From Eubacterium sp. (lineage in GTDB: Bacteria > Bacillota > Clostridia > Lachnospirales > Lachnospiraceae), in the NCBI GenBank assembly GCA_017433615.1, contig JAFRGW010000001.1, forward strand, positions 1 to 42,042: a stretch of DNA of 42,042 nt, given 5' to 3'. Below the pieces are notes generated by a model. The model searched no databases. It was not told where the DNA came from and saw only the letters and a list, made by a program, of their open reading frames with translations. The position numbers and the translations under genes were made by a program. Below, in pieces: positions 6,009 to 26,519 of this stretch (its first letter is position 1; each line of letters opens with the position of its first letter).

Positions 6009-8483
6009 ATGAAACGACAGGAATGGAAAAAATGGATGGCAGGTCTTCTGACAGCCGGGATGCTGGTTGCACAGCCAATGGTATCTTTTGCAGATACGGC
6101 AGCTGATGCAGCAGTGAAGTCTGCTTCTTCCGGTGAGACAGGCAAAGAGAATTCAGGGGAGACGCCTGTGGATCCGGAACCGACAGGGACACCGGAGCCG
6201 ACGGCAGATCCGGAACCGACAGGGACACCGGAGCCGACAGTGTCGCCGGAACCGACAGGGACACCGGAGCCGACAGTGTCGCCGGAACCAACAGGGACAC
6301 CGGATGTGACACCTTCTCCGACGGCCGAACCGGCACCAACGGCTGCGCCGTCGCAGGAAGAAGCCATCATCATAGAAGAGACAACAACCGAAGAGCCGGA
6401 GAAGGAAGAAGAGACGGAAGAGGAGAAAGAAGAAAAATCCACCAATGAACAGCTGGTGGCAGGACAGCAGATTGTTCACGCGCCGGTGATCATAGATAAT
6501 TTCCGTTTCTGGACTGTCAACCGGAAATACGCCTTTGCCAAGGAGAAAGATACAGCCATTCTTGAAGAGATGGATGATGAGGCTGAGGTAATCGGAACAC
6601 TTCCTGAGGATGGACTTTGCTATGTCCTGAAAGATCATGCAGAGGAAGGACCGGGAGTCGACGAGAATCCTTCAGGAATGGGTGAAGAGCAGGCAGAAGA
6701 CGCGGAAGATGCAGCTGAGGCAGAGCAGGAGACAGAAGTCACGGTTGATACGACCGGAGAAACCTGGCTGTATGTTGAGTCGAACGGAGTCCGTGGATTT
6801 GTAAAGGACGAAGATCTTTACTCCGGCAGACGTGCACAGGAGATTCTGGCAGACCATCTGGAGCATAAGAAGGATCCGGTCACAGGTGATCTGGTCACCA
6901 TGCTTGCATCTGATGTGCCGCTTGCAGAAGAGAAGGTTAAACCGGAAGAGAATGATGCATTTACCTGGATGCGTGCAACTGCAGAGAAGACTGTGATCCA
7001 GAAGGATTACGCCATCTCCAATGACCGGGTGAGCATCCGTGAGGAGAAAGATGCGGAAAGCCGCGCGATCGGTGTGCTTCCCAAAGGCGCAATCTGTTAC
7101 ATCGTTGCAGACCGTGACAGTGAATGGGTCTATGTTGAGTCCGGTGATGTGCGCGGATTTGTTAAAAATGAATATCTCGAAAAGGATGAAACATCCTATC
7201 TGGAAGATACGCTTGAAGAAGAGCAGCTTGAAGGCATCAGAGCCAGTGAACTGACATCAGCGGGATCCGACGAATCTGCAGATGATGCGGACAGCGAGAT
7301 GGAGATCGAGCTGATCACCAGTGACGGGAAGAATGTCCGTGCAGGGAAAACGCCTGCCGGTGCACAGAATGTCACGGAAGACAACGACGGAAACAGCAGT
7401 TCAGATGCTTCAGAAACGAGCCTGAAAGCAGAGGCGGATGATGACAGACCGGCTTCCGACCTGGACCTGCAGGAAGAAAACGGAGTCACACAGAAAACTG
7501 CCGGAAACAGTCCGGAATCTTCTGATGAGACAGCAGATGACGCGGATCCGGATGCTGACAGCGCAGACGGAGATGAGAATGCAGCTGATGCAGAGGAAGA
7601 AGATCCGCTCGCAGAGATCGATCAGGAAAAATATCCTGTTTATTACGAGGTAATTGAGAAGGGCGAGGACAGCTTCGATACAGCGGAGCAGAACATTGAG
7701 CCGGATGAAAACAGCGCACTCTATTATACCCGTACGTCCCCGTTCCCCGGAACACCGGGCGGCAAGGTGCGTGAGTCTCTGATCGCCTACGCCTCTGAAT
7801 TTGTCGGCAACCCGTATGTCTGGGGCGGAACCAGTCTGACCAGCGGTGCGGACTGCTCCGGATTCGTCCAGAGCATCTATGCACAGTACGGATACAGTCT
7901 GCCGCGTACGTCCGGGGAGCAGTCACAGTATGGCATGCAGATTCCTGTCGAAGAGGCAGAACCTGGTGATCTGATCTTCTACGCAGAAGATGGTGTGGTC
8001 TACCACGTTGTTATCTATGCGGGAGACGGCGAGACGATCGAAGCAATGAACGAGAGTCACGGCATCACATTCGGACATGTCCTGTCTTCGGATGCAGTCT
8101 GGGCTACCCGCGTCCTGGAAGATACACGCGATGAACTTGTGGATTTCAGTGCAGATATCGGCGCACAGAATGCGACGAAGGAAATGTACGGAAAAGATCT
8201 CGGTGAATTCCGGATCACCTACTACTGCCCGTGTGAAGAATGCAACGGCGTCTATGCAGGACATTCCGCGACAGGTGCGCCGCTGATTCAGGGCCGCACA
8301 ATCGCAGTTGACCCGTCACTCATTCCTTACGGAACCAAAGTTATCATAGGCGGTCACGTCTTTACGGCAGAAGATTGCGGCGGCGCAATCAAAGGCAAAC
8401 GCATTGATGTCTTCGTCAATGAACACGCAATGTGTGATGCCCTCGGCGTCAGCAGCGCACATGTCTATCTCACAAATGAATAA
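6009..8483 (+). CDS. Secreted SH3 - NlpC/P60 - 3D domain cell-wall hydrolase
   Basis: 824 residues. A signal peptide is visible (KRQEWKKWMAGLLTAGMLV, cleavage near SFA). Then follow a proline/glutamate/threonine stalk of about four 12-residue repeats (PEPTGTPEPT), an acidic linker, two bacterial SH3-like domains (about 175-277 and 336-395, both ending VESxxVRGFVKxE), and a long Asp/Glu/Ser-rich spacer. An NlpC/P60 domain follows with Cys616 (GADCSGF) and His666 (VVYHVVIYAG). The C-terminal 3D domain (about 731-824) has ITYYCPC, AVDPSLIPYGT and AEDCGGAIKGKRID. NlpC/P60 domains cut gamma-D-Glu-diamino acid bonds in peptidoglycan stem peptides; 3D domains resemble MltA/Rpf C-termini and suggest glycan cleavage. 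One chain may therefore cut both peptide and glycan. Start ATG 6009 has only a weak upstream GAGG. Confidence 0.9.
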   Translation: MKRQEWKKWMAGLLTAGMLVAQPMVSFADTAADAAVKSASSGETGKENSGETPVDPEPTGTPEPTADPEPTGTPEPTVSPEPTGTPEPTVSPEPTGTPDVTPSPTAEPAPTAAPSQEEAIIIEETTTEEPEKEEETEEEKEEKSTNEQLVAGQQIVHAPVIIDNFRFWTVNRKYAFAKEKDTAILEEMDDEAEVIGTLPEDGLCYVLKDHAEEGPGVDENPSGMGEEQAEDAEDAAEAEQETEVTVDTTGETWLYVESNGVRGFVKDEDLYSGRRAQEILADHLEHKKDPVTGDLVTMLASDVPLAEEKVKPEENDAFTWMRATAEKTVIQKDYAISNDRVSIREEKDAESRAIGVLPKGAICYIVADRDSEWVYVESGDVRGFVKNEYLEKDETSYLEDTLEEEQLEGIRASELTSAGSDESADDADSEMEIELITSDGKNVRAGKTPAGAQNVTEDNDGNSSSDASETSLKAEADDDRPASDLDLQEENGVTQKTAGNSPESSDETADDADPDADSADGDENAADAEEEDPLAEIDQEKYPVYYEVIEKGEDSFDTAEQNIEPDENSALYYTRTSPFPGTPGGKVRESLIAYASEFVGNPYVWGGTSLTSGADCSGFVQSIYAQYGYSLPRTSGEQSQYGMQIPVEEAEPGDLIFYAEDGVVYHVVIYAGDGETIEAMNESHGITFGHVLSSDAVWATRVLEDTRDELVDFSADIGAQNATKEMYGKDLGEFRITYYCPCEECNGVYAGHSATGAPLIQGRTIAVDPSLIPYGTKVIIGGHVFTAEDCGGAIKGKRIDVFVNEHAMCDALGVSSAHVYLTNE
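6171..6314 (+). repeat. 36-bp coding tandem repeat (PEPT stalk)
   Basis: Four 36-bp units at 6171, 6207, 6243 and 6279 encode DPEPTGTPEPTx-type 12-mers. The units differ by few bases, so copy number probably varies between strains. Confidence 0.85.
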
Positions 8484-12739: not shown

Positions 12740-13555
12740 TCAAATATAAGGCTGAATCTTTTGTCTGATTCTGTGATAATCCACACGGCACGCCCCTTCT
12801 GAAATACGGACAGGGATCGTATCTGAAAATGTATACTTTACCGGATACGTACCTGCTTCGAAATGATAGACCAGAATCTCGAGATTATGCGGATCTACAA
12901 CCCAGTATTCCCGCACACCCGCAAGACGGTATTTGTTCAGTTTACGAATCAGGTCATGCACGCGGCCGGACGGAGAAAGAACTTCGACGACAAAGCCGGG
13001 CGCACCCTCAATCCGCTTTTTTGTAATCTGCCTGCTATCACATACGATAAAAAGATCCGGCTGCAGGATCGTCCACTGATCCATGTCAAGGCGGACATCA
13101 CAGGGAGCAATGAACAGTTCACACGCCGGATGCTTCTCGACACATGATGCAAGCTGCAGGCCGAGCTGCACCAGAATCATCTGGTGGATTGGCTGTGGCG
13201 CGCTCATATCGAAGATGTATCCGTCGATGAGCTCCGCGCGTCTGTCATCCGGAAGTGCATAATAATCCTCTGTGGTGTACGGCCCGCGGGCTGGCCCGCC
13301 ATAGGCAGGGATCCCTTCCCGGACAGCAGCAGGCAGCGGAAACGTATGCTGCAGATCACTGCCGCATAAGCTGCATTTAGCTGCGGCGTTGTCCAGTACG
13401 GCCTCCAGTTTTTGCAGGGTTTTCGGATCCGGTGTTTTTTGTATCCCCGAAAAAATATCCAGTATGGTTTGAAGCGGAATACCCGTTTGTCTTGCGAATT
13501 CTTCTTCCGGCAATAAAAGCGATTCTTTATTTATTATTAATTCTTTTAATGTCAT
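12740..13555 (-). CDS. HTH - Uma2 fusion (PD-(D/E)xK endonuclease-fold protein)
   Basis: 271 residues. The first 55 or so (LKELIINKESLLLPEEEFARQTGIPLQTILDIFSG) look like a degenerate Xre-type helix-turn-helix. A CSLCGSD pair follows, then a Uma2 (DUF820) domain from about residue 92 to 265. The nuclease core is recognisable in ILQPDLFIVCD (Asp), GFVVEVLSPSG (Glu), REYWVVDP and the LNKY lysine. Uma2 proteins share the restriction-endonuclease fold, but their function is mostly unknown. ATG 13555 has GGAAGGAG 8 bases upstream. The gene is divergent from the kinase operon. The HTH may act on the dyad between the two promoters; this is inference. Confidence 0.82.
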   Translation of the reverse strand: MTLKELIINKESLLLPEEEFARQTGIPLQTILDIFSGIQKTPDPKTLQKLEAVLDNAAAKCSLCGSDLQHTFPLPAAVREGIPAYGGPARGPYTTEDYYALPDDRRAELIDGYIFDMSAPQPIHQMILVQLGLQLASCVEKHPACELFIAPCDVRLDMDQWTILQPDLFIVCDSRQITKKRIEGAPGFVVEVLSPSGRVHDLIRKLNKYRLAGVREYWVVDPHNLEILVYHFEAGTYPVKYTFSDTIPVRISEGACRVDYHRIRQKIQPYI

Positions 13556-13671: not shown

Positions 13672-13731
13672 AGTTTTCATAATACGTATACATAAAACGA
13701 TGATGTGGTGTGAAAACGGAGCTTGGAAAGA

Positions 13732-15666
13732 ATGAAGGCAGGAAGTATTGCGGGAAAGCGATATCAAATCATCAGGGAAATCGGTTCCGGCGGGATGTCA
13801 GTTGTGTATCTGGCCAGAGATCTGACACTGAAGCAGGAATGGGCCGTGAAAGTGGTCAGAAAGGGTGTGACGCCGCAGGAGATCTGGAAGGAGAGACAGC
13901 TTCTCTCAGAAGCAATGTTGATGAAGCGTCTGGATCATCCGGGTTTTCCGCGCATTGTGGATCTGTTTGAGGAAAATGAATGTACCTGCATCGTGATGGA
14001 CTATATTGAGGGAGAAACGCTGGATGTAATATTGAATCGGGACGGCCCCTGTACGGAAAGACAGGTGACGGCCTGGGCACGTCAGCTGTGTGACATACTG
14101 ATTTATCTGCATACAATGGAACGTCCGGTATTTTACTGCGACCTGAAACCGTCCAATATTATCTGTGCACGCACAGGCCGTTTGTACCTGATCGACTTTG
14201 GAATTGCAGCGCAGGAGAAGATGGAGGGGGGTATTCACGGCTTCGCAGCATCGAGGAAGGTGGACGGCGGAACGCCCGGCTGTGCGGCATCGGGGAAGGT
14301 GGACGGCGGAACACCCGGCTGTGCAGCATCGGGGAAGGTGGACGGCGGAACGCCCGGCTGTGCAGCATCGGGGAAGGTGGACGGCGGAACACCCGGCTTC
14401 GCGGCACCGGAACAGCTGCGGAATGGAATCTGCGATGCGCGGACAGATATTTATTCTCTGGGAATGACCATCTATACACTGCTTACCGGCCTGGATCCGC
14501 GCAGTCCGGCATTTCATAAAATGAACAGAGAGGAAGTTCTGCAGTTTCCGCAGTCAGATGTATATTGCAGCGCAGGCATACAGGAGATTGTCCGGAGATG
14601 CACCTGCAGAAATCCGAAGGAACGCTACCGGAACGGAAGGGAATTGATGCGGGATCTGCTGCAGCCGGTGCGGCCCGCTGCCCTGAAGCGGCGCAGAGAT
14701 ATGCGGCGCAGGATCTTGTCGGCCGCAGTGATTATATCTGTGCTGCTGCTTTCAGCTGCAGCAATTTTTCAGCGTGCGGTCCGTGAATTTACGGAGGAAG
14801 AAATCTATGCGGCAAAGCTGGATCCGGCAGCAACACAGGGAGCAGAAGAGAAGGAACGTTCTTATCTGGAAGCTATCGATCTTCAGCCGGACAGCAGCGA
14901 TGGCTTTCTGCGGCTTTTGGGTTTATATGAGACGGAGATGGATTTCAAAGACCGGGAGAGCAGACAGCTTCTTCTGCAGTTTCATCAGTGCAGAACGGCT
15001 TTGTCGGCAGATCCGGATATGTGGAATGAGATACTGTGCCGAATCGGAAAACTGTATTTCTTCCGGTTTCAGGGGGGAGACGGGAGTGTCCGTGAACGGA
15101 TCCTCCGCGCGGAACCGTTTTTTGCAGAATGGAACCCGGAAAATGAGAAGGAGAAAGAGAAAGAAACAGATTCCGCCGCGGGAACGAATCAGAACGAGGA
15201 TGCTGAATCGTCTGGAAGTAACGCCGTGCCTGTATCAGACGCGGAATGCCTCCGGGAAATCTGCAGTTTCTATAAAGGGTATGTATCCGCTTCGACAAAC
15301 ATGGAGGAGCCGGGGCAGGATACGCTGCGGAGTATGCTGCAGGCAGTCAGCAGTCTCCTCGTTGTTCTGGACCACTATCACGAAGAAGATCGGACGGCTG
15401 TTCAGCTGACGATCCTGCGGGAAATGGCAGAAATATTGAATGTGTGGCGCTATGCGTTCTTTGCGGCAGGTGTGGAAGAACAGGAAATGCTGGAGTTAAT
15501 GAATCAAATCATTAACAAAGTGGATGCAGCAGAGACACTGCGGGCAGATTTGCTGGAAGAAAAGCAGAAACTGGAAGTAGACTGTGAAGTGTTTACAGAG
15601 CAGATTCGACTCACATGGGAACAGACGGATGAAACAGCCGGAGGGAACCCGGGGATGCAGCAGTGA
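13732..15666 (+). CDS. Transmembrane Hanks-type Ser/Thr protein kinase with expanded activation loop
   Basis: 644 residues from ATG 13732; a TTG three codons earlier lies too near the CGGAG site. The kinase domain has the glycine loop GSGGMSVVY (18-26), Lys40 in AVKVV, YCD in place of HRD with catalytic Asp137 (YCDLKPSNI), DFG at 155-157, APEQ at 225-228, and DIYSLGMTIYTLLTG. All catalytic residues are present. Between DFG and APE sits a 13-residue repeat, making the activation segment about 73 residues against the usual 25-35. A transmembrane helix follows at about 327-349 (RRRILSAAVIISVLLLSAAAIF), then about 290 residues of helical, probably extracellular sensor domain. The gene is co-transcribed with the Ig-like protein 39 bases downstream. 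Confidence 0.92.
   Translation: MKAGSIAGKRYQIIREIGSGGMSVVYLARDLTLKQEWAVKVVRKGVTPQEIWKERQLLSEAMLMKRLDHPGFPRIVDLFEENECTCIVMDYIEGETLDVILNRDGPCTERQVTAWARQLCDILIYLHTMERPVFYCDLKPSNIICARTGRLYLIDFGIAAQEKMEGGIHGFAASRKVDGGTPGCAASGKVDGGTPGCAASGKVDGGTPGCAASGKVDGGTPGFAAPEQLRNGICDARTDIYSLGMTIYTLLTGLDPRSPAFHKMNREEVLQFPQSDVYCSAGIQEIVRRCTCRNPKERYRNGRELMRDLLQPVRPAALKRRRDMRRRILSAAVIISVLLLSAAAIFQRAVREFTEEEIYAAKLDPAATQGAEEKERSYLEAIDLQPDSSDGFLRLLGLYETEMDFKDRESRQLLLQFHQCRTALSADPDMWNEILCRIGKLYFFRFQGGDGSVRERILRAEPFFAEWNPENEKEKEKETDSAAGTNQNEDAESSGSNAVPVSDAECLREICSFYKGYVSASTNMEEPGQDTLRSMLQAVSSLLVVLDHYHEEDRTAVQLTILREMAEILNVWRYAFFAAGVEEQEMLELMNQIINKVDAAETLRADLLEEKQKLEVDCEVFTEQIRLTWEQTDETAGGNPGMQQ
14260..14415 (+). repeat. 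39-bp coding tandem repeat in the kinase activation loop
   Basis: Four units begin at 14260, 14299, 14338 and 14377, nearly identical in DNA. Three encode VDGGTPGCAASGK; the last encodes VDGGTPGFAAPEQ, the genuine P+1 loop and APE motif. A diverged fifth unit (GIHGFAASRK) precedes them. The expansion therefore grew from the kinase's own GTPGFAAPEQ segment. Confidence 0.95.
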
Positions 15667-15705: not shown

Positions 15706-18510
15706 GTGAGGGGAAGGAAGAAGCACAAGTTCGCCGCGCAGCTCGCGCGCGATTGGGGACCGCGATTTACAAATAAATACATATGGGCGGCAGGCCTGAT
15801 GGTCCTGATGTTTCTGGCGATGGGCTTTTTGACGGCGGCCGGAAAGAAGGAACATGAAGAGCAAAAGGATACCGGAAAGGTGCGTGAGACAGCAGTTCTG
15901 ATTCAGCCGCTGCAGGAAACTTCCCGGCGCGATGCGGAAGGCAATGCACTCTATCAGGCGGAAGAAGTGGAAATCCGGCTGACGGCTGTGTCAGAGGAGG
16001 GAATTCATGCCATCAGGTGGGAACTGGAAACAGATGAGAAGAAAGAACATTTGCTGGAACTGCCGGTTTATGTTCTGCCGGAGCCGGAACCGGAACCAAC
16101 ACCTGTGACGACACCGGATCCAGCGTCAACACCACAGATAACGCAGGTTCCGGAGGAGACACCAGAACCGCAGACAGTGTCAACATCGGAGTCGGCGCTC
16201 ACACCAACGTCTGAGTCTGTTCCAGAATCGACCTCCGCACCGACATCGGAACCCACTGCTGAATCGACCTCCGCACCGACATCGGAACCCACTGCAGAAC
16301 CGACCTCCGCACCGACACCGGCGCCCACTGCAGAACCGACCTCCGCACCGACACCGGCGCCCACTGCAGAGCCGACACCCACATCAACACCTGCCCCGCA
16401 GGGGGAAGCGCCGCCGGAGCCCGGCGACACCATCAGCGGCTGGACAGTTCAGAAAGTGGACGGCGTACTGGTCACAGAGATGACCCGGATTGTACGGGTC
16501 AGGAAAGAAATGAACGGCATCGTAATACGGATGCAGATGACGGATCGGAAGGGTAACAGTACGAAAAAAGAGGTGTACCGTTTCAGTATCGACCGGACAG
16601 CACCGGAAGTTCGTGTGCATTTTCGGGAAAATCATCCGGTGAATGGCATTTTCTTCAATGAAAGCCGGACTGCGGAAATAACTGTCAGAGACCAGAACTT
16701 CGATCCGGAGCAGGTGTCATTTGAAGCGGTACGTGACGGGGTTTCAGAATCCTTCGGGAATGTCGCATGGGAGAGCGGGAAATCTGCAGAGATCCATAAG
16801 GCAGTGATCAGGTTTTATGAAGAGGGAGTATATGATTTTACTGTCCGGGCGGCGGACCGGGCGGGGCTGGTCAGCGAAGGACCGGAATATTCACAGGAAA
16901 CGGTTGTTCCGCAGCATTTTGTTGTGGATCGCACGGCACCTGAAATCCGGGTTTCGTATGATAATAACAATGCAAAAAACAATCTGTATTTTTCTGCACC
17001 GAGAACGGCGCATGTGACCATAACAGAACGCAATTTTGACGCAGGAAACGTGTGGATCAGCACCGGAGCGGCAAATGTCACACCACTTTGGAAATCAGAT
17101 GGATACGTACACACAGCGGAGATCCCATTTTCGGACGACGGCAGTTATGTATTATCTGTTCAGGCGGCGGACCGCGCGGGAAATATGTCAGATAGATTTT
17201 CAGCCGGCGGGGCGGCGGCCCCCGGAAGATTTGTGATTGACCGGGTGATTGACCGGCTGAAAATCACAGGCGTAAAGGATGGCGTATATTATCGCGGAGA
17301 CATAAATCTGAAGATTGCAGCAGTGGATCAGAACTATGCTTCCTGCAGCGTCCGGCTGTTTTGCACCCGGATGGATGAGAAGGAGCGCGATGTGACGGCG
17401 GAGGTTTTCGGGAGTATCAAAGAAACGAAGCAGGGCTGGACGGGCAGCGGGCGGATCCGGGCAGCTGCGCCGGACAGAGACGGCCTGTATGAACTGCGTG
17501 TTATATTGAGGGACCTGGCCGGAAATGAAAAAACAGAAAACGTGTCTTTCGTAGTGAATCGTCACGGCTCTGTATACCAGTATGATTCCCGTCTGAAGGC
17601 GCTGCAGGGTACCTGCGTAAAACAAATATCACAGCCCCTGGTTATCACGGAGTACAATCCAGGTCCGCTGCAGGGAGAAGGAAAAATTGAAGTAACCAGA
17701 GACGGCAGGCCGCTAAAGGAAATACAGGCAGAGATTCAGAGCGGCAGGCTGAAAAAGGGAAAGACAGCCGGGGCAGGCTGGTATCAGTACCGGTATCTGC
17801 TGCGCCCTGAAACATTTCTGCAGGAGGGCACCTACCGGATCGGAATTACCGGACGGGACAAGGCAGGCAATCTGCTGGCGACAGGAAGAGATCCGGAAGG
17901 ACAGATTGTATTTTCTGTTGACCGGACTGCACCGGTGCTGGATCAGTTTTACATCGAAAGGATTCTGACGGACGGAAAGGCAGTTTTATATATGGAAATC
18001 TTTGATGCAATCGGACTGGCGCGTGTCAATATCCGCCAGGGGCAGGAGGTACTGCTGGAACGTGACAGCTTTCCGGATATTTTCCGGCTGCAGACAGAAC
18101 TCTCGGTCTCACTGACAGAGAAAGATCCACTCCGGATTGTCATGCGCGACCGCGCGGGAAACATCGGAATCGAACAGGTCAGACCGGAGGAGTTCCTGAC
18201 GGACAGAGATACTTCTGTGATGGAGGAGGTTCAGGCTGAAGCGGGTCAGGGGAGTAGTCCGGAGCAGCCGGAAGAAGTGACGGAGGCAGACAGAATATCA
18301 GATACAGGAAGTGCCGGCATCGGCCGGACAGCGGCTGATACTGGCGGGAATCCAGTCACAGGCAGTCATTCGAATGCAGACGGGAAAAGGACAGAGCAGG
18401 CAGCAGCAGACCGCCGGATGGATTTCCGGTATGGCTGGCTTTGTATTCTGGTGTCCGTGACGATTTTTGCATTTAGAGTGCTTATAAAAAGGCACAGCAT
18501 ATCTCCTTGA
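15706..18510 (+). CDS. Membrane-anchored Ig-like protein with proline-rich stalk
   Basis: 934 residues from GTG 15706, with AAAGGGGGT 6 bases upstream. A basic N-terminus leads into a transmembrane segment (about 24-46, KYIWAAGLMVLMFLAMGFLTAA). A Pro/Thr/Glu/Ser stalk (about 125-235) contains TSAPTSEPTAE 12-mers. Then come several bacterial Ig-like beta domains, each opening with a VDRTAPE-type motif (FSIDRTAPEVRV, FVVDRTAPEIRV, FSVDRTAPVLDQ) and holding AADRAGN. A second transmembrane segment lies at the extreme C-terminus (WLCILVSVTIFAFRVLI). Both ends are thus in or at the membrane, with the Ig region outside. No enzyme motif is seen. It follows the kinase in one operon, so it is a plausible substrate, ligand sensor or partner; this is inference. 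Confidence 0.82.
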   Translation: MRGRKKHKFAAQLARDWGPRFTNKYIWAAGLMVLMFLAMGFLTAAGKKEHEEQKDTGKVRETAVLIQPLQETSRRDAEGNALYQAEEVEIRLTAVSEEGIHAIRWELETDEKKEHLLELPVYVLPEPEPEPTPVTTPDPASTPQITQVPEETPEPQTVSTSESALTPTSESVPESTSAPTSEPTAESTSAPTSEPTAEPTSAPTPAPTAEPTSAPTPAPTAEPTPTSTPAPQGEAPPEPGDTISGWTVQKVDGVLVTEMTRIVRVRKEMNGIVIRMQMTDRKGNSTKKEVYRFSIDRTAPEVRVHFRENHPVNGIFFNESRTAEITVRDQNFDPEQVSFEAVRDGVSESFGNVAWESGKSAEIHKAVIRFYEEGVYDFTVRAADRAGLVSEGPEYSQETVVPQHFVVDRTAPEIRVSYDNNNAKNNLYFSAPRTAHVTITERNFDAGNVWISTGAANVTPLWKSDGYVHTAEIPFSDDGSYVLSVQAADRAGNMSDRFSAGGAAAPGRFVIDRVIDRLKITGVKDGVYYRGDINLKIAAVDQNYASCSVRLFCTRMDEKERDVTAEVFGSIKETKQGWTGSGRIRAAAPDRDGLYELRVILRDLAGNEKTENVSFVVNRHGSVYQYDSRLKALQGTCVKQISQPLVITEYNPGPLQGEGKIEVTRDGRPLKEIQAEIQSGRLKKGKTAGAGWYQYRYLLRPETFLQEGTYRIGITGRDKAGNLLATGRDPEGQIVFSVDRTAPVLDQFYIERILTDGKAVLYMEIFDAIGLARVNIRQGQEVLLERDSFPDIFRLQTELSVSLTEKDPLRIVMRDRAGNIGIEQVRPEEFLTDRDTSVMEEVQAEAGQGSSPEQPEEVTEADRISDTGSAGIGRTAADTGGNPVTGSHSNADGKRTEQAAADRRMDFRYGWLCILVSVTIFAFRVLIKRHSISP
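16231..16374 (+). repeat. 36-bp coding tandem repeat (Pro/Thr stalk)
   Basis: Four 36-bp units at 16231, 16267, 16303 and 16339 encode TSAPTSEPTAES/P and TSAPTPAPTAEP. They are probably length-variable between strains. Confidence 0.85.
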
Positions 18511-23611: not shown

Positions 23612-25495
23612 TTATGACAGTGTCTCCAGAATCCAGTTCACATCGTCAGTTGTCTTCATCTTCTCAAGGACTTCTTCATCCTCAAGTGCCTCGGCGATCT
23701 TGCCGAGCAGTTCCAGATGTTCGTCGCCGATGCCTGCGATACCGATGACAAGCTGTGCTTTTTCATCGCCGAAATCAACGCCGTCCGGATACTGTGTGAG
23801 AACGATACCGGTTTTCTTGACGGTGCCTTTTGCTTCGGTTGTGCCGTGCGGAATAGCAAGGCCCATGCCCATATAAGTTGAAACAATCTTTTCACGGTCG
23901 AGCATAGCGTCGACATATGACGGCTCGACACAGCCCTGTGCGACAAGCATTTCACCTGCTTTGCGGATTGCATCTTCCTTAGAAACAGGAGCAAGTTTCA
24001 GACTGATGCTGTTCTTGTCAAATACCGGCTTTGCTTTCGGTGCTGCATTTTCGGCTGCGTCTTCTGCTGCAGGAGCTGCCTTTGCAGGTGCGTCCAGTGT
24101 TGTGAGCTGAATGTAGAGCGCATCCAGTGCCGGATCAGCAAGGAAGTTTTCAATGGTAACCAGCTGTGCATTCGGCGCTGACTTTCTCGCACGCTCCTGG
24201 AGCGTGCTCTGGACGACAGCGATATCGCAGTCTGCCGGGATGTTGTCGACAGAGGTATTCTTGACAATAAGATCCGGACGGTTGCCTTTTACGCGGTTTC
24301 TGAACTTTGTCGCGCCCATTGCGGAGGATCCCATGCCCGCATCGCATGCGAAGATGACTTTCTTTACGGAAGCGGCATCTTTCTTTACACCGTCAGAAAT
24401 AGCTGCGACAGTCTGTCCCTTGGACTCTGCCTTCATGTCTTTCATCTGCTGCTGTGCTTCTTCCAGACCGCCCTTTGCGCTGCCCATGCGGACGATCGGT
24501 GAGCAGATCAGGAAAGAGATTGCAGTTGCGATGATAACGCCGAGGATGATCAGGAAAATCTTGTTCTTCGGTGCCATGGAAAGGAATGCAATGATGGATC
24601 CCGGAGAAGCCGGTCCCTTCAGTCCGCAGCCTGTGATGGTGAACCAGAAGATGGCAACGATATTACCAACGATCGGTCCGATAATAACTGCCGGGTTCAT
24701 CAGGATATACGGGAAATAGATTTCGTGGATACCGCCGAACAGGTGAATGATGATTGCGCCCGGTGCGGAGTCTTTTGTCATTTTGTCCTTGCAGAATGCC
24801 CAGTAAGCAAGCAGTACGCCGAGTCCCGGACCCGGGTTTGCCTCGAGCATGTACATGATGGACTGGCCTGTAGCCTTTGCCTGCTCTGCGCCGATCGGTG
24901 TGAAGATACCGTGGTTGATGGCGTTGTTCAGGAAGAGCACCTTGGCCGGCTCAATGAAGATAGCAGAGAGCGGCAGCAGGTGATGGTTGACCAGTACGTC
25001 GATTGCTGCGGTCAGGATTGCCAGAAGTGCAGCCATCAGCGGTCCGATCAGATAGTAGCCGATGATCGCGACCAGCATACCCAGGATACCGACGGAGAAG
25101 TTGTTGATCAGCATCTCAAATCCGGCCGGCATACGGTCTTCCATAAACTGGTCGAATTTCTTGATGATCCAGCCTGCGAACGGGCCGATCAGCATGGCGC
25201 CCATCAGCATCGGCTGTCCGTCTGTGCCGCCGACACCTGCGATACAGCCCATAACGGAGATGGCGCCCATCAGGAAGCCGCGGTCGCCGCCGACCAGACG
25301 TCCGCCTGAACCTGCGATCAGGATCGGAAGCAGATAAGTCAGCATGTACGGCTGAATAGAAGCGAGACCTTCATTCGGAAGCCAGCCGTCCGGAATGAAG
25401 AGTGCAGTGATAAAGCCCCATGCGATGAATGCGCCGATGTTCGGCATGACCATTGCAGAAAGGAATTTACCAAATCTCTGTACACCTTGTTTCAT
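23612..25495 (-). CDS. mtlA: Mannitol PTS permease, fused IICBA
   Basis: 627 residues, the size of the one-chain E. coli-type MtlA. The enzyme imports mannitol and phosphorylates it to mannitol 1-phosphate using HPr-phosphate. Residues 1-340 are the membrane IIC domain (VMPNIGAFIAWGFITALF, LFGGIHEIYFPYILM with the GIHE motif). IIB holds the phospho-Cys384 in FACDAGMGSSAMGA. A short Ala/Pro linker (APAKAAPAAEDAAENAAPKAK) leads to IIA with the phospho-His550 in GLAIPHGTTE. The start is the ATG at 25493-25495 with GAGGGAGGG 8 bases upstream. The gene lies between the DeoR-type regulator and mtlD on the same strand. Confidence 0.96.
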   Translation of the reverse strand: MKQGVQRFGKFLSAMVMPNIGAFIAWGFITALFIPDGWLPNEGLASIQPYMLTYLLPILIAGSGGRLVGGDRGFLMGAISVMGCIAGVGGTDGQPMLMGAMLIGPFAGWIIKKFDQFMEDRMPAGFEMLINNFSVGILGMLVAIIGYYLIGPLMAALLAILTAAIDVLVNHHLLPLSAIFIEPAKVLFLNNAINHGIFTPIGAEQAKATGQSIMYMLEANPGPGLGVLLAYWAFCKDKMTKDSAPGAIIIHLFGGIHEIYFPYILMNPAVIIGPIVGNIVAIFWFTITGCGLKGPASPGSIIAFLSMAPKNKIFLIILGVIIATAISFLICSPIVRMGSAKGGLEEAQQQMKDMKAESKGQTVAAISDGVKKDAASVKKVIFACDAGMGSSAMGATKFRNRVKGNRPDLIVKNTSVDNIPADCDIAVVQSTLQERARKSAPNAQLVTIENFLADPALDALYIQLTTLDAPAKAAPAAEDAAENAAPKAKPVFDKNSISLKLAPVSKEDAIRKAGEMLVAQGCVEPSYVDAMLDREKIVSTYMGMGLAIPHGTTEAKGTVKKTGIVLTQYPDGVDFGDEKAQLVIGIAGIGDEHLELLGKIAEALEDEEVLEKMKTTDDVNWILETLS

Positions 25496-25536: not shown

Positions 25537-25677
25537 GTGCAGGAATGAACCTGCGCGTGCTGTGGTTGACGGACTGCGTGCAGGAATGAACCTGCGTGTG
25601 CTGTGGTTGACGGACTGCGTGCAGGAATGAACCTGCGTGTGCTGTGGTTGACGGATTGTGTGCAGGAATGAGCCTGC
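25537..25677 (-). repeat. 41-bp hairpin-bearing tandem repeat in the mtlA leader
   Basis: Units start at 25537, 25578, 25619 and 25660 (the last truncated to 18 bases). Each contains GCAGG and CCTGC around a 6-base AATGAA or AATGAG loop, so the mtlA leader RNA can form four small hairpins in a row. The period is not a multiple of three, so it is not coding. It fills most of the gap between the regulator stop (25690) and the mtlA ribosome binding site. Confidence 0.88.
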
Positions 25678-25689
25678 ATCTGCGTATAT

Positions 25690-26451
25690 TTACAGGAGTT
25701 CGACCCCTGCTTCCGCACATTCCCGGACAAAAGTTTCCGGAAGATCTCCATTGGAGATCACCATATCTACATCTTTCAGGGTGCAGATGGAAAAAGTACT
25801 GTTCCAGCCGATCTTGGAAGTATCCAGCAGAATAACCGTTTTCTCGGAACGCCGCATGGCTGTCTGCTTCAGAATTGCTTCTTCAGATGCGCCGCAGCTG
25901 AATCCGAATTCGCTGCTGTAGCAGGTTACGCCGATAAAGGCGATGTCAAAGTTAATCTGCTGCAGACGGCTGATGCTCTCGGCGCCGCTGACACTGACGC
26001 TGTAACGGTTAATGCGTCCGCCGGGCAGATAAACTTCTGCGCGTTCCAGCCTTGCCAGTTCCATTGCGCAGCTGATACCGGATGTAAAAATAATGTGCTT
26101 CTGATCCGGCATGAGCTTCGCAAGTGCAGTAGCTGTACTTCCTGAATCAAGATAAATGGTTGTGTTCGGGGCGATCAGCTGAACGGCTTTCTCTGCGATT
26201 GTCTGTTTTGCTGCACTGTTCCGGACAACACGCTGCCCGTAATAATCATCCGTTCCAATGACTACTTCAACGGATTTTGCACCGCCGTGAATCCTGACAA
26301 TCTGCTTGGCGTTGTCAAGTGCCTTCAGATCCGTGCGCAGGGTCATCTCGGAAACCTGTGGAAACGCCTCTTTCAGTTCCGCAAACCGGACCTTTCCTTT
26401 TTGATTGATCAACTGAACGATTGCATCTCTTCGTTGTTCCATTGTCTCCAT
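25690..26451 (-). CDS. DeoR/GlpR-family transcriptional regulator of the mannitol operon
   Basis: 253 residues from the ATG at 26449-26451, which has GAGGTGG upstream; a GTG at 26463 overlaps that site. The N-terminal winged HTH is MEQRRDAIVQLINQKGKVRFAELKEAFPQVSEMTLRTDLKAL...IVRIHGGAK. The C-terminal DeoR sugar-phosphate sensor has ERAVQLIAPNTTIYLDSGSTATAL-like sequence (AEKAVQLIAP, IYLDSGSTATAL), TSGISCAMEL, YLPGGRINR and DIAFIGVTCYS. It is first in the operon ahead of mtlA and mtlD, so it most likely controls that operon in response to a mannitol-derived phosphate. This differs from the PRD-type MtlR regulator of many Firmicutes. Confidence 0.92.
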   Translation of the reverse strand: METMEQRRDAIVQLINQKGKVRFAELKEAFPQVSEMTLRTDLKALDNAKQIVRIHGGAKSVEVVIGTDDYYGQRVVRNSAAKQTIAEKAVQLIAPNTTIYLDSGSTATALAKLMPDQKHIIFTSGISCAMELARLERAEVYLPGGRINRYSVSVSGAESISRLQQINFDIAFIGVTCYSSEFGFSCGASEEAILKQTAMRRSEKTVILLDTSKIGWNSTFSICTLKDVDMVISNGDLPETFVRECAEAGVELL

Positions 26452-26519
26452 AGGCCACCTCACATGTTGTTTTTAATTTAACAATGTTGACTTTTGAAAT
26501 GATGTTTCGGTTCAAAATC

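Follow-up and report, generated by a model that had tools for sequence, protein, structure and literature searches.

In RD kinases, the arginine of the HRD motif touches the phosphorylated activation loop. Such kinases require phosphorylation of this loop and non-RD kinases are thought not to, as set out in passages of a paper on the plant LRR receptor kinase EFR (PMC8463890). EFR carries a cysteine in place of the HRD arginine and is a non-RD kinase; according to the same passages (PMC8463890), which do not mention a tandem repeat in the loop, phosphorylation of its loop matters in vivo. Non-RD status is therefore no proof of phospho-independence.

A further point of reference is provided by the in-frame VNTRs of bacteria, whose near-identical units are a multiple of three nucleotides long and differ in copy number between related genomes, as do those of the array described below. 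Known bacterial coding VNTRs lie mostly in surface proteins and linkers and, to our knowledge, mostly not in a regulatory segment of an enzyme. A search of the open-access literature turned up no account of tandem repeats within the activation loop of a kinase, which is weak evidence of absence.

Here we describe such a repeat in a Hanks-type Ser/Thr kinase from Eubacterium sp. (Lachnospiraceae), encoded in a stretch of 42,042 nucleotides (positions 1 to 42,042 of the forward strand of contig JAFRGW010000001.1, GCA_017433615.1), which we call the window. The kinase shares its fold and catalytic motifs with kinases of the Stk1/PknB type. Its best match in the PDB is M. tuberculosis PknB by sequence and, in a Foldseek comparison, S. 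aureus Stk1/PknB by fold, followed by M. tuberculosis PknA entries. Against the PASTA kinase model NF033483 it scores 167 bits, below the curated equivalog cut-off of 450, and unlike the PASTA kinases, it ends in a helical domain where they have PASTA repeats, reads YCD at HRD, and carries the repeat in its activation loop. Its architecture is shared by a group of Bacillota kinases whose C-terminal domain is likewise helical (the best 80 of 564 relatives, a few of them from other phyla, e.g., Bifidobacterium), which are 38-45% identical to it in the kinase domain (54 of the 80 aligned) and 27-33% over the full length (32 aligned in full). Enzyme and repeat are both of a familiar type, but the repeat sits at a site where our searches found no other; further cases may exist.

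The kinase gene and its 39-bp array

The kinase is encoded by an open reading frame at 13723-15666 on the forward strand, with a likely ATG start at 13732 and a product of 644 aa. The coding region from this start (13732..15666) comprises a kinase domain (aa 1 to about 310), a helix (aa 316-363), and a C-terminal domain (aa about 371-637). The Pfam profile PF00069 matches the protein at 142.1 bits against a cut-off of 31.7, and the catalytic Lys, Glu, Asp, Asn, and DFG are all present. In alignment A3, which holds 55 sequences, G18, G20, G21, K40, E60, D137, N142, D155-G157, and P226-E227 are invariant. An earlier note on this DNA had declared all catalytic residues intact; this is true of Lys, Glu, Asp, Asn, and DFG but not of HRD, which reads YCD, with Cys136 (14137..14139, forward strand) in place of the arginine in alignments A1 and A3. 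In the models, residues 316-363 form a long single helix with a hydrophobic segment that is presumably transmembrane, and we take the kinase to be placed in the membrane and its C-terminal domain to be TPR-like; no Pfam family above cut-off names this domain, and it has no Pfam TPR match.

The DFG motif lies at 14194..14202 (forward strand; residues 155-157) and APE at 14404-14412 (residues 225-227), 73 residues from one to the other inclusive, in agreement with the earlier note. Between them, four extra 13-residue units, one degenerate and three identical, precede the canonical P+1 loop and APE, KVDGGTPGFAAPEQ, which lies at 14374..14415. All units lie on the forward strand. The degenerate unit 0, KMEGGIHGFAASR, occupies 14218..14256 and is 69-74% identical in DNA to units 1-4. 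Units 1, 2, and 3, each KVDGGTPGCAASG, were delimited by TRF and unit comparison at 14257..14295, 14296..14334, and 14335..14373, and differ from one another at synonymous third positions only. The canonical unit consists of KVDGGTPGFAAPE followed by Q, and its G219, T220, A224, P226, E227, and Q228 are invariant in alignment A3. The proposal of the earlier note that the units copy the P+1/APE segment is supported. The note had counted the three near-identical units correctly and missed the degenerate fourth, just before the point where it began the repeat; likewise, the change from Phe to Cys that it ascribed to each extra copy is found in three of the four, the degenerate first unit having kept its Phe.

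TRF reported a 39-bp period with 4.1 copies and 93% matches over 14238-14398. Shifted by 39 bases, the most self-similar stretch of 117 bases agrees with itself at 93%, whereas 2,000 codon shuffles of this gene gave 51% at most; for any lag from 9 to 120, the maximum in 200 codon shuffles of the kinase gene was 48%. Neighbouring units share exact runs at the 39-base lag, 26 and 38 bases long, the longer one reaching into the canonical unit. The array is thus a coding minisatellite whose 39-bp period keeps the frame. In the rest of the genome, no more than two matches to the array region were found, both short and weak (17 and 26 bases; E 0.147 and 0.51), and this rules out a dispersed element.

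The kinase domain was modeled with AlphaFold2 using 54 relatives (mean pLDDT 81). Residues 164-215, which hold the extra units, are the sole segment longer than two residues in which pLDDT falls under 50, and confidence climbs through the canonical unit, from a mean of 58 at 211-220 to about 92 at 221-230. A full-length model (pTM 0.50) has pLDDT below 50 at 162-194, at 196-216, and in three short segments closer to the C-terminus; in it, residues 316-363 form the long helix and the C-terminal domain is helical throughout. From these models the extra units are likely to be disordered, although low pLDDT is no proof of disorder because the stretch has no aligned homologues.

Copy number and loop length among relatives

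Five genomes of the genus were compared, one per species. Three of them carry syntenic orthologues, with the same gene order, larB-larC-kinase-Ig-like protein-hypF-mtlD, in the window, in a sister species (G001), and in a third species (G003); larB, larC, hypF, and mtlD are the names that we assign to these proteins from our own reading, and the Ig-like gene was recognized with Pfam. In alignment A2, the kinases of the sister and third species are 78% and 61% identical to the window kinase, respectively. The number of extra units is four in the window, two in the sister species, and zero in the third species. The loop of the sister species, KIQGGTAGREVPG, KVQGGTAGREVPE, KVHGGTAGYAAPEQ, holds its two extra units at the same site in wording unlike that of the window, and the loop of the third species, IATAGAVREKVRAGTPGYAAPEQ, has none. 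Loop lengths follow the unit: 67 residues in the window (15 + 4 × 13), 41 in the sister species (15 + 2 × 13), and 19 in the third species. The repeat is therefore real and not the assembly artefact that the earlier note had allowed for, since the sister genome, assembled independently, carries a version of its own.

The remaining two genomes, G002 and G004, have a distant kinase after larC (tblastn identity 32% and 28%) with a 22-residue loop and the HRD arginine. These two kinases (L015 and L018), in the same place after larC, have DFN for DFG and P+1 residues of the APPE type. A gene that we take to be Uma2-like lies between larC and the kinase in the window (12740-13555, reverse strand) and in the sister species (6742-7557 of L034); tblastn found no match to it in the stretches L035, L036, and L037.

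Pairwise identity among units 1-3 of the window is 95-97%, and that between these units and the canonical one is 82-85%; the extra units of the sister species, two in number, share 87% identity, and extra units from different species share 49-67%. Over codons 1-8, identity to each gene's own canonical unit is 96-100% for window units 1-3 and 71% for the degenerate unit, and 96% (g1) and 83% (g0) in the sister species; over codons 9-13, it is 60-67% for window units 1-3 and 53% in the sister species. The pattern looks like homogenisation of the array with the final copy forced to keep APE. The motif K-V/I-x-GGT-x-G is retained in five of the six extra units of the two species, the other unit residues differing; the degenerate window unit 0 lacks its Thr. 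Since the units of the sister species carry Arg where those of the window have Cys, redox control by the loop cysteines, which the earlier note suggested, is ruled out as a conserved feature. Between the window and the sister species, a simple Nei-Gojobori count gave dN/dS values of 0.09 for the N-lobe, 0.21 for the C-lobe, and 0.23 for the rest. The kinase codons are under purifying selection, and with such low values the gene is not decaying.

Loop length was then set against a wider sample. A contig scan with the window protein alone as query found no relative, and an alignment-based scan gave at least 564 confirmed stretches, of which the best 80 were used as relatives. In these best 80 of 564, YRD and a loop of 21-26 residues were present in 80 of 80 and a loop of exactly 22 residues in 74, with the qualification that the scan patterns included Y[RC]D and GTxGYAAPE, so kinases without both motifs are under-sampled. 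The window kinase has neither the YRD nor a loop of that length. Twenty-five of the 28 loci L006-L033 could be parsed, L023, L026, and L033 standing outside the count. Among the 22 parsed first, 21 loops had 19-24 residues, and three further loci had 21-23; the loop of L031 is 24 residues long by eye, the pattern having returned 105 by overrunning its SPEQ. In this kinase family, the length of the activation segment is constrained.

The window loop was also used as a query against a sample of 397 family genomes that did not include the sister genome. It matched 49 of the 397 at E <= 0.1, and outside its own locus all matches were weak, the best having an E of 6.7e-5 (L052). Apart from the third species, known separately, the matches opened and counted were the 29 loci L052-L080: 28 lacked any kinase motif and the remaining one, L075, encodes a kinase whose loop has 18 residues, so that no second repeat-bearing kinase was found among the 29 loci opened. 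A fixed insert shared across genera, which the earlier note had considered as well, was seen neither in the best 80 of 564 relatives nor in the loci opened from the 397 family genomes.

Further repeats occur in the surroundings of the kinase gene. Coding repeats of 36 bp at 6168-6304 and 16223-16376 lie in Pro/Thr-rich stretches of a protein that we take to be NlpC/P60-like and of the Ig-like gene adjoining the kinase, respectively; in the sister and third species, these two genes also contain arrays, some with other periods. A 41-bp repeat (3.4 copies, 25537-25677), each unit of which holds an inverted repeat GCAGG...CCTGC, lies between two genes that we read as PTS transporter-like (23612-25495) and DeoR-type regulator-like (25690-26463), and related arrays are found at 18891-19001 of L034, where the locus end cuts it, and at 18337-18416 of L035. 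A repeated operator is a possible identity for the 41-bp array.

The HRD arginine and the loop Asp-Thr motif

Among the 11 sequences of alignment A1, the HRD arginine is replaced by Cys in two, exactly the two repeat-bearing kinases of the window and the sister species, a replacement that the window kinase has in common with the plant kinase EFR (PMC8463890). The arginine is present in the repeat-free kinase of the third species and in 80 of the best 80 of 564 relatives. An Asp-Thr motif in the loop before LGT, the Thr of which is presumably a phosphosite, is absent from the kinases of the window, the sister species, and the third species, and present in the other eight sequences of A1; among the relatives, it occurs in 73 of the 76 loops counted. 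With no arginine before the catalytic Asp and no family loop Thr, the window kinase does not resemble an RD kinase, and by sequence (YCD, no Arg in the HxD position) it is a non-RD kinase.

A pattern search of the 397 family genomes found three Tyr-Cys-Asp kinases, that of the window included. Across all searches, eight kinases other than the repeat-bearing ones lack the HRD arginine, and their loops have an ordinary length of 18-23 residues: L161 and L163 (YCD), L014 (FCD), L019 (YKD), L021 (HQD), L027 (HSD), and L032 and L075 (YLD). They weaken the idea that loss of the HRD arginine brings the insert, and the loss may therefore permit the insert but does not cause it. Non-RD kinases are apparently not rare in the sampled genomes (L075 of G341, L032, L021, L019, and L027).

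Origin and role of the insert

We favour the reading, to which we give a probability of about 0.52, that a coding minisatellite has been growing within an activation loop no longer under phospho-control, where the insert is tolerated and the last copy keeps working. In this course of events, a 13-codon unit with the P+1 threonine motif would have been duplicated in tandem in the ancestor of the two sister species; one ancestral duplication is more parsimonious, though not proven, than two independent ones in the same 39-bp phase. The array would then have expanded and been homogenised separately, presumably by slippage, to reach two extra units in the sister species and four in the window. The last copy alone would serve as the working P+1 loop and APE anchor, and the earlier copies, freed of that constraint, would hang out as a loop that is probably flexible in solution. 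The Asp-Thr motif would have been lost first, as it is missing from the repeat-free third species too, and the HRD arginine would have changed to cysteine; as the cysteine and the repeat occur in the same two species, either the Cys change or the first duplication may have come first. The association of the two comes from one clade and hence represents one evolutionary event. The insert would have been tolerated because the lineage had left phospho-control of its activation loop, and the window kinase is presumably independent of phosphorylation. It most likely remains active, and it would be either constitutive or controlled through the membrane and the helical domain; the long loop would do no more than restrict the access of substrates. 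The GGT kept in five of six extra units counts against this explanation, since the units could be phosphorylated.

The same GGT retention, in two species whose units otherwise differ, together with the purifying selection on the kinase, speaks for an unlikely alternative in which the extra units are decoy P+1 loops or multi-site autophosphorylation substrates: their repeated GGT motifs would compete with substrate or become phosphorylated, so that output depends on how many units there are. The retention could also result from homogenisation with the canonical unit, however, and the degenerate first unit has no Thr, the arginine that reads a phosphorylated loop is a Cys, and the models place the units nowhere confidently. 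The tuning of loop autophosphorylation put forward in the earlier note has become less likely than a loop without a role in phospho-control, because the HRD arginine has turned into Cys and the Asp-Thr motif is lost. That the copies of the P+1 loop act as internal pseudosubstrates, their slippage-set number fixing the output after phospho-control was dropped, we regard as improbable. We are just as doubtful of a contingency locus, at which slippage of near-identical 39-bp units would vary copy number within the population and alter output without a frameshift: the exact runs between neighbouring units, the variation in copy number between species, and the further arrays nearby all suit it, but the frame and the last unit survive any change in copy number, so there is no on/off switch.

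Considerably more weight attaches, at somewhat less than even odds, to near-neutral repeat noise, an insert without effect that persists as the genus makes and tolerates minisatellites. It overlaps our preferred explanation, which adds the release from phospho-control. In all three species, two genes near the kinase carry arrays in their Pro/Thr-rich parts and an intergenic stretch holds another, which favours such noise as the source of the insert and not necessarily as the whole story; moreover, there are non-RD kinases with ordinary loops, so the insert does not follow from the cysteine. The eight counter-examples lowered our probability for the preferred explanation from 0.58 and slightly raised that for repeat noise. 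Against repeat noise, the neighbouring coding arrays sit in what we take to be extracellular linkers, whereas the activation loop is constrained in length (21-26 residues in 80 of the best 80 of 564 relatives). An assembly artefact or a decaying pseudogene is extremely improbable. The window assembly is fragmented (173 contigs), but the units differ synonymously and the independently assembled sister genome has a differently worded array; with dN/dS low, this rules out an artefact, and the intact frames and the same low dN/dS speak against decay.

A minisatellite expanding in a loop released from phospho-control thus remains the explanation that we prefer. The natural series of zero, two, and four extra copies at one site, coupled with the loss of the arginine that reads a phosphorylated loop, is a ready experiment. 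It bears on the invasion of a regulatory element of an enzyme by repeats, and on how much activation loop a kinase needs once phosphorylation is no longer its switch.
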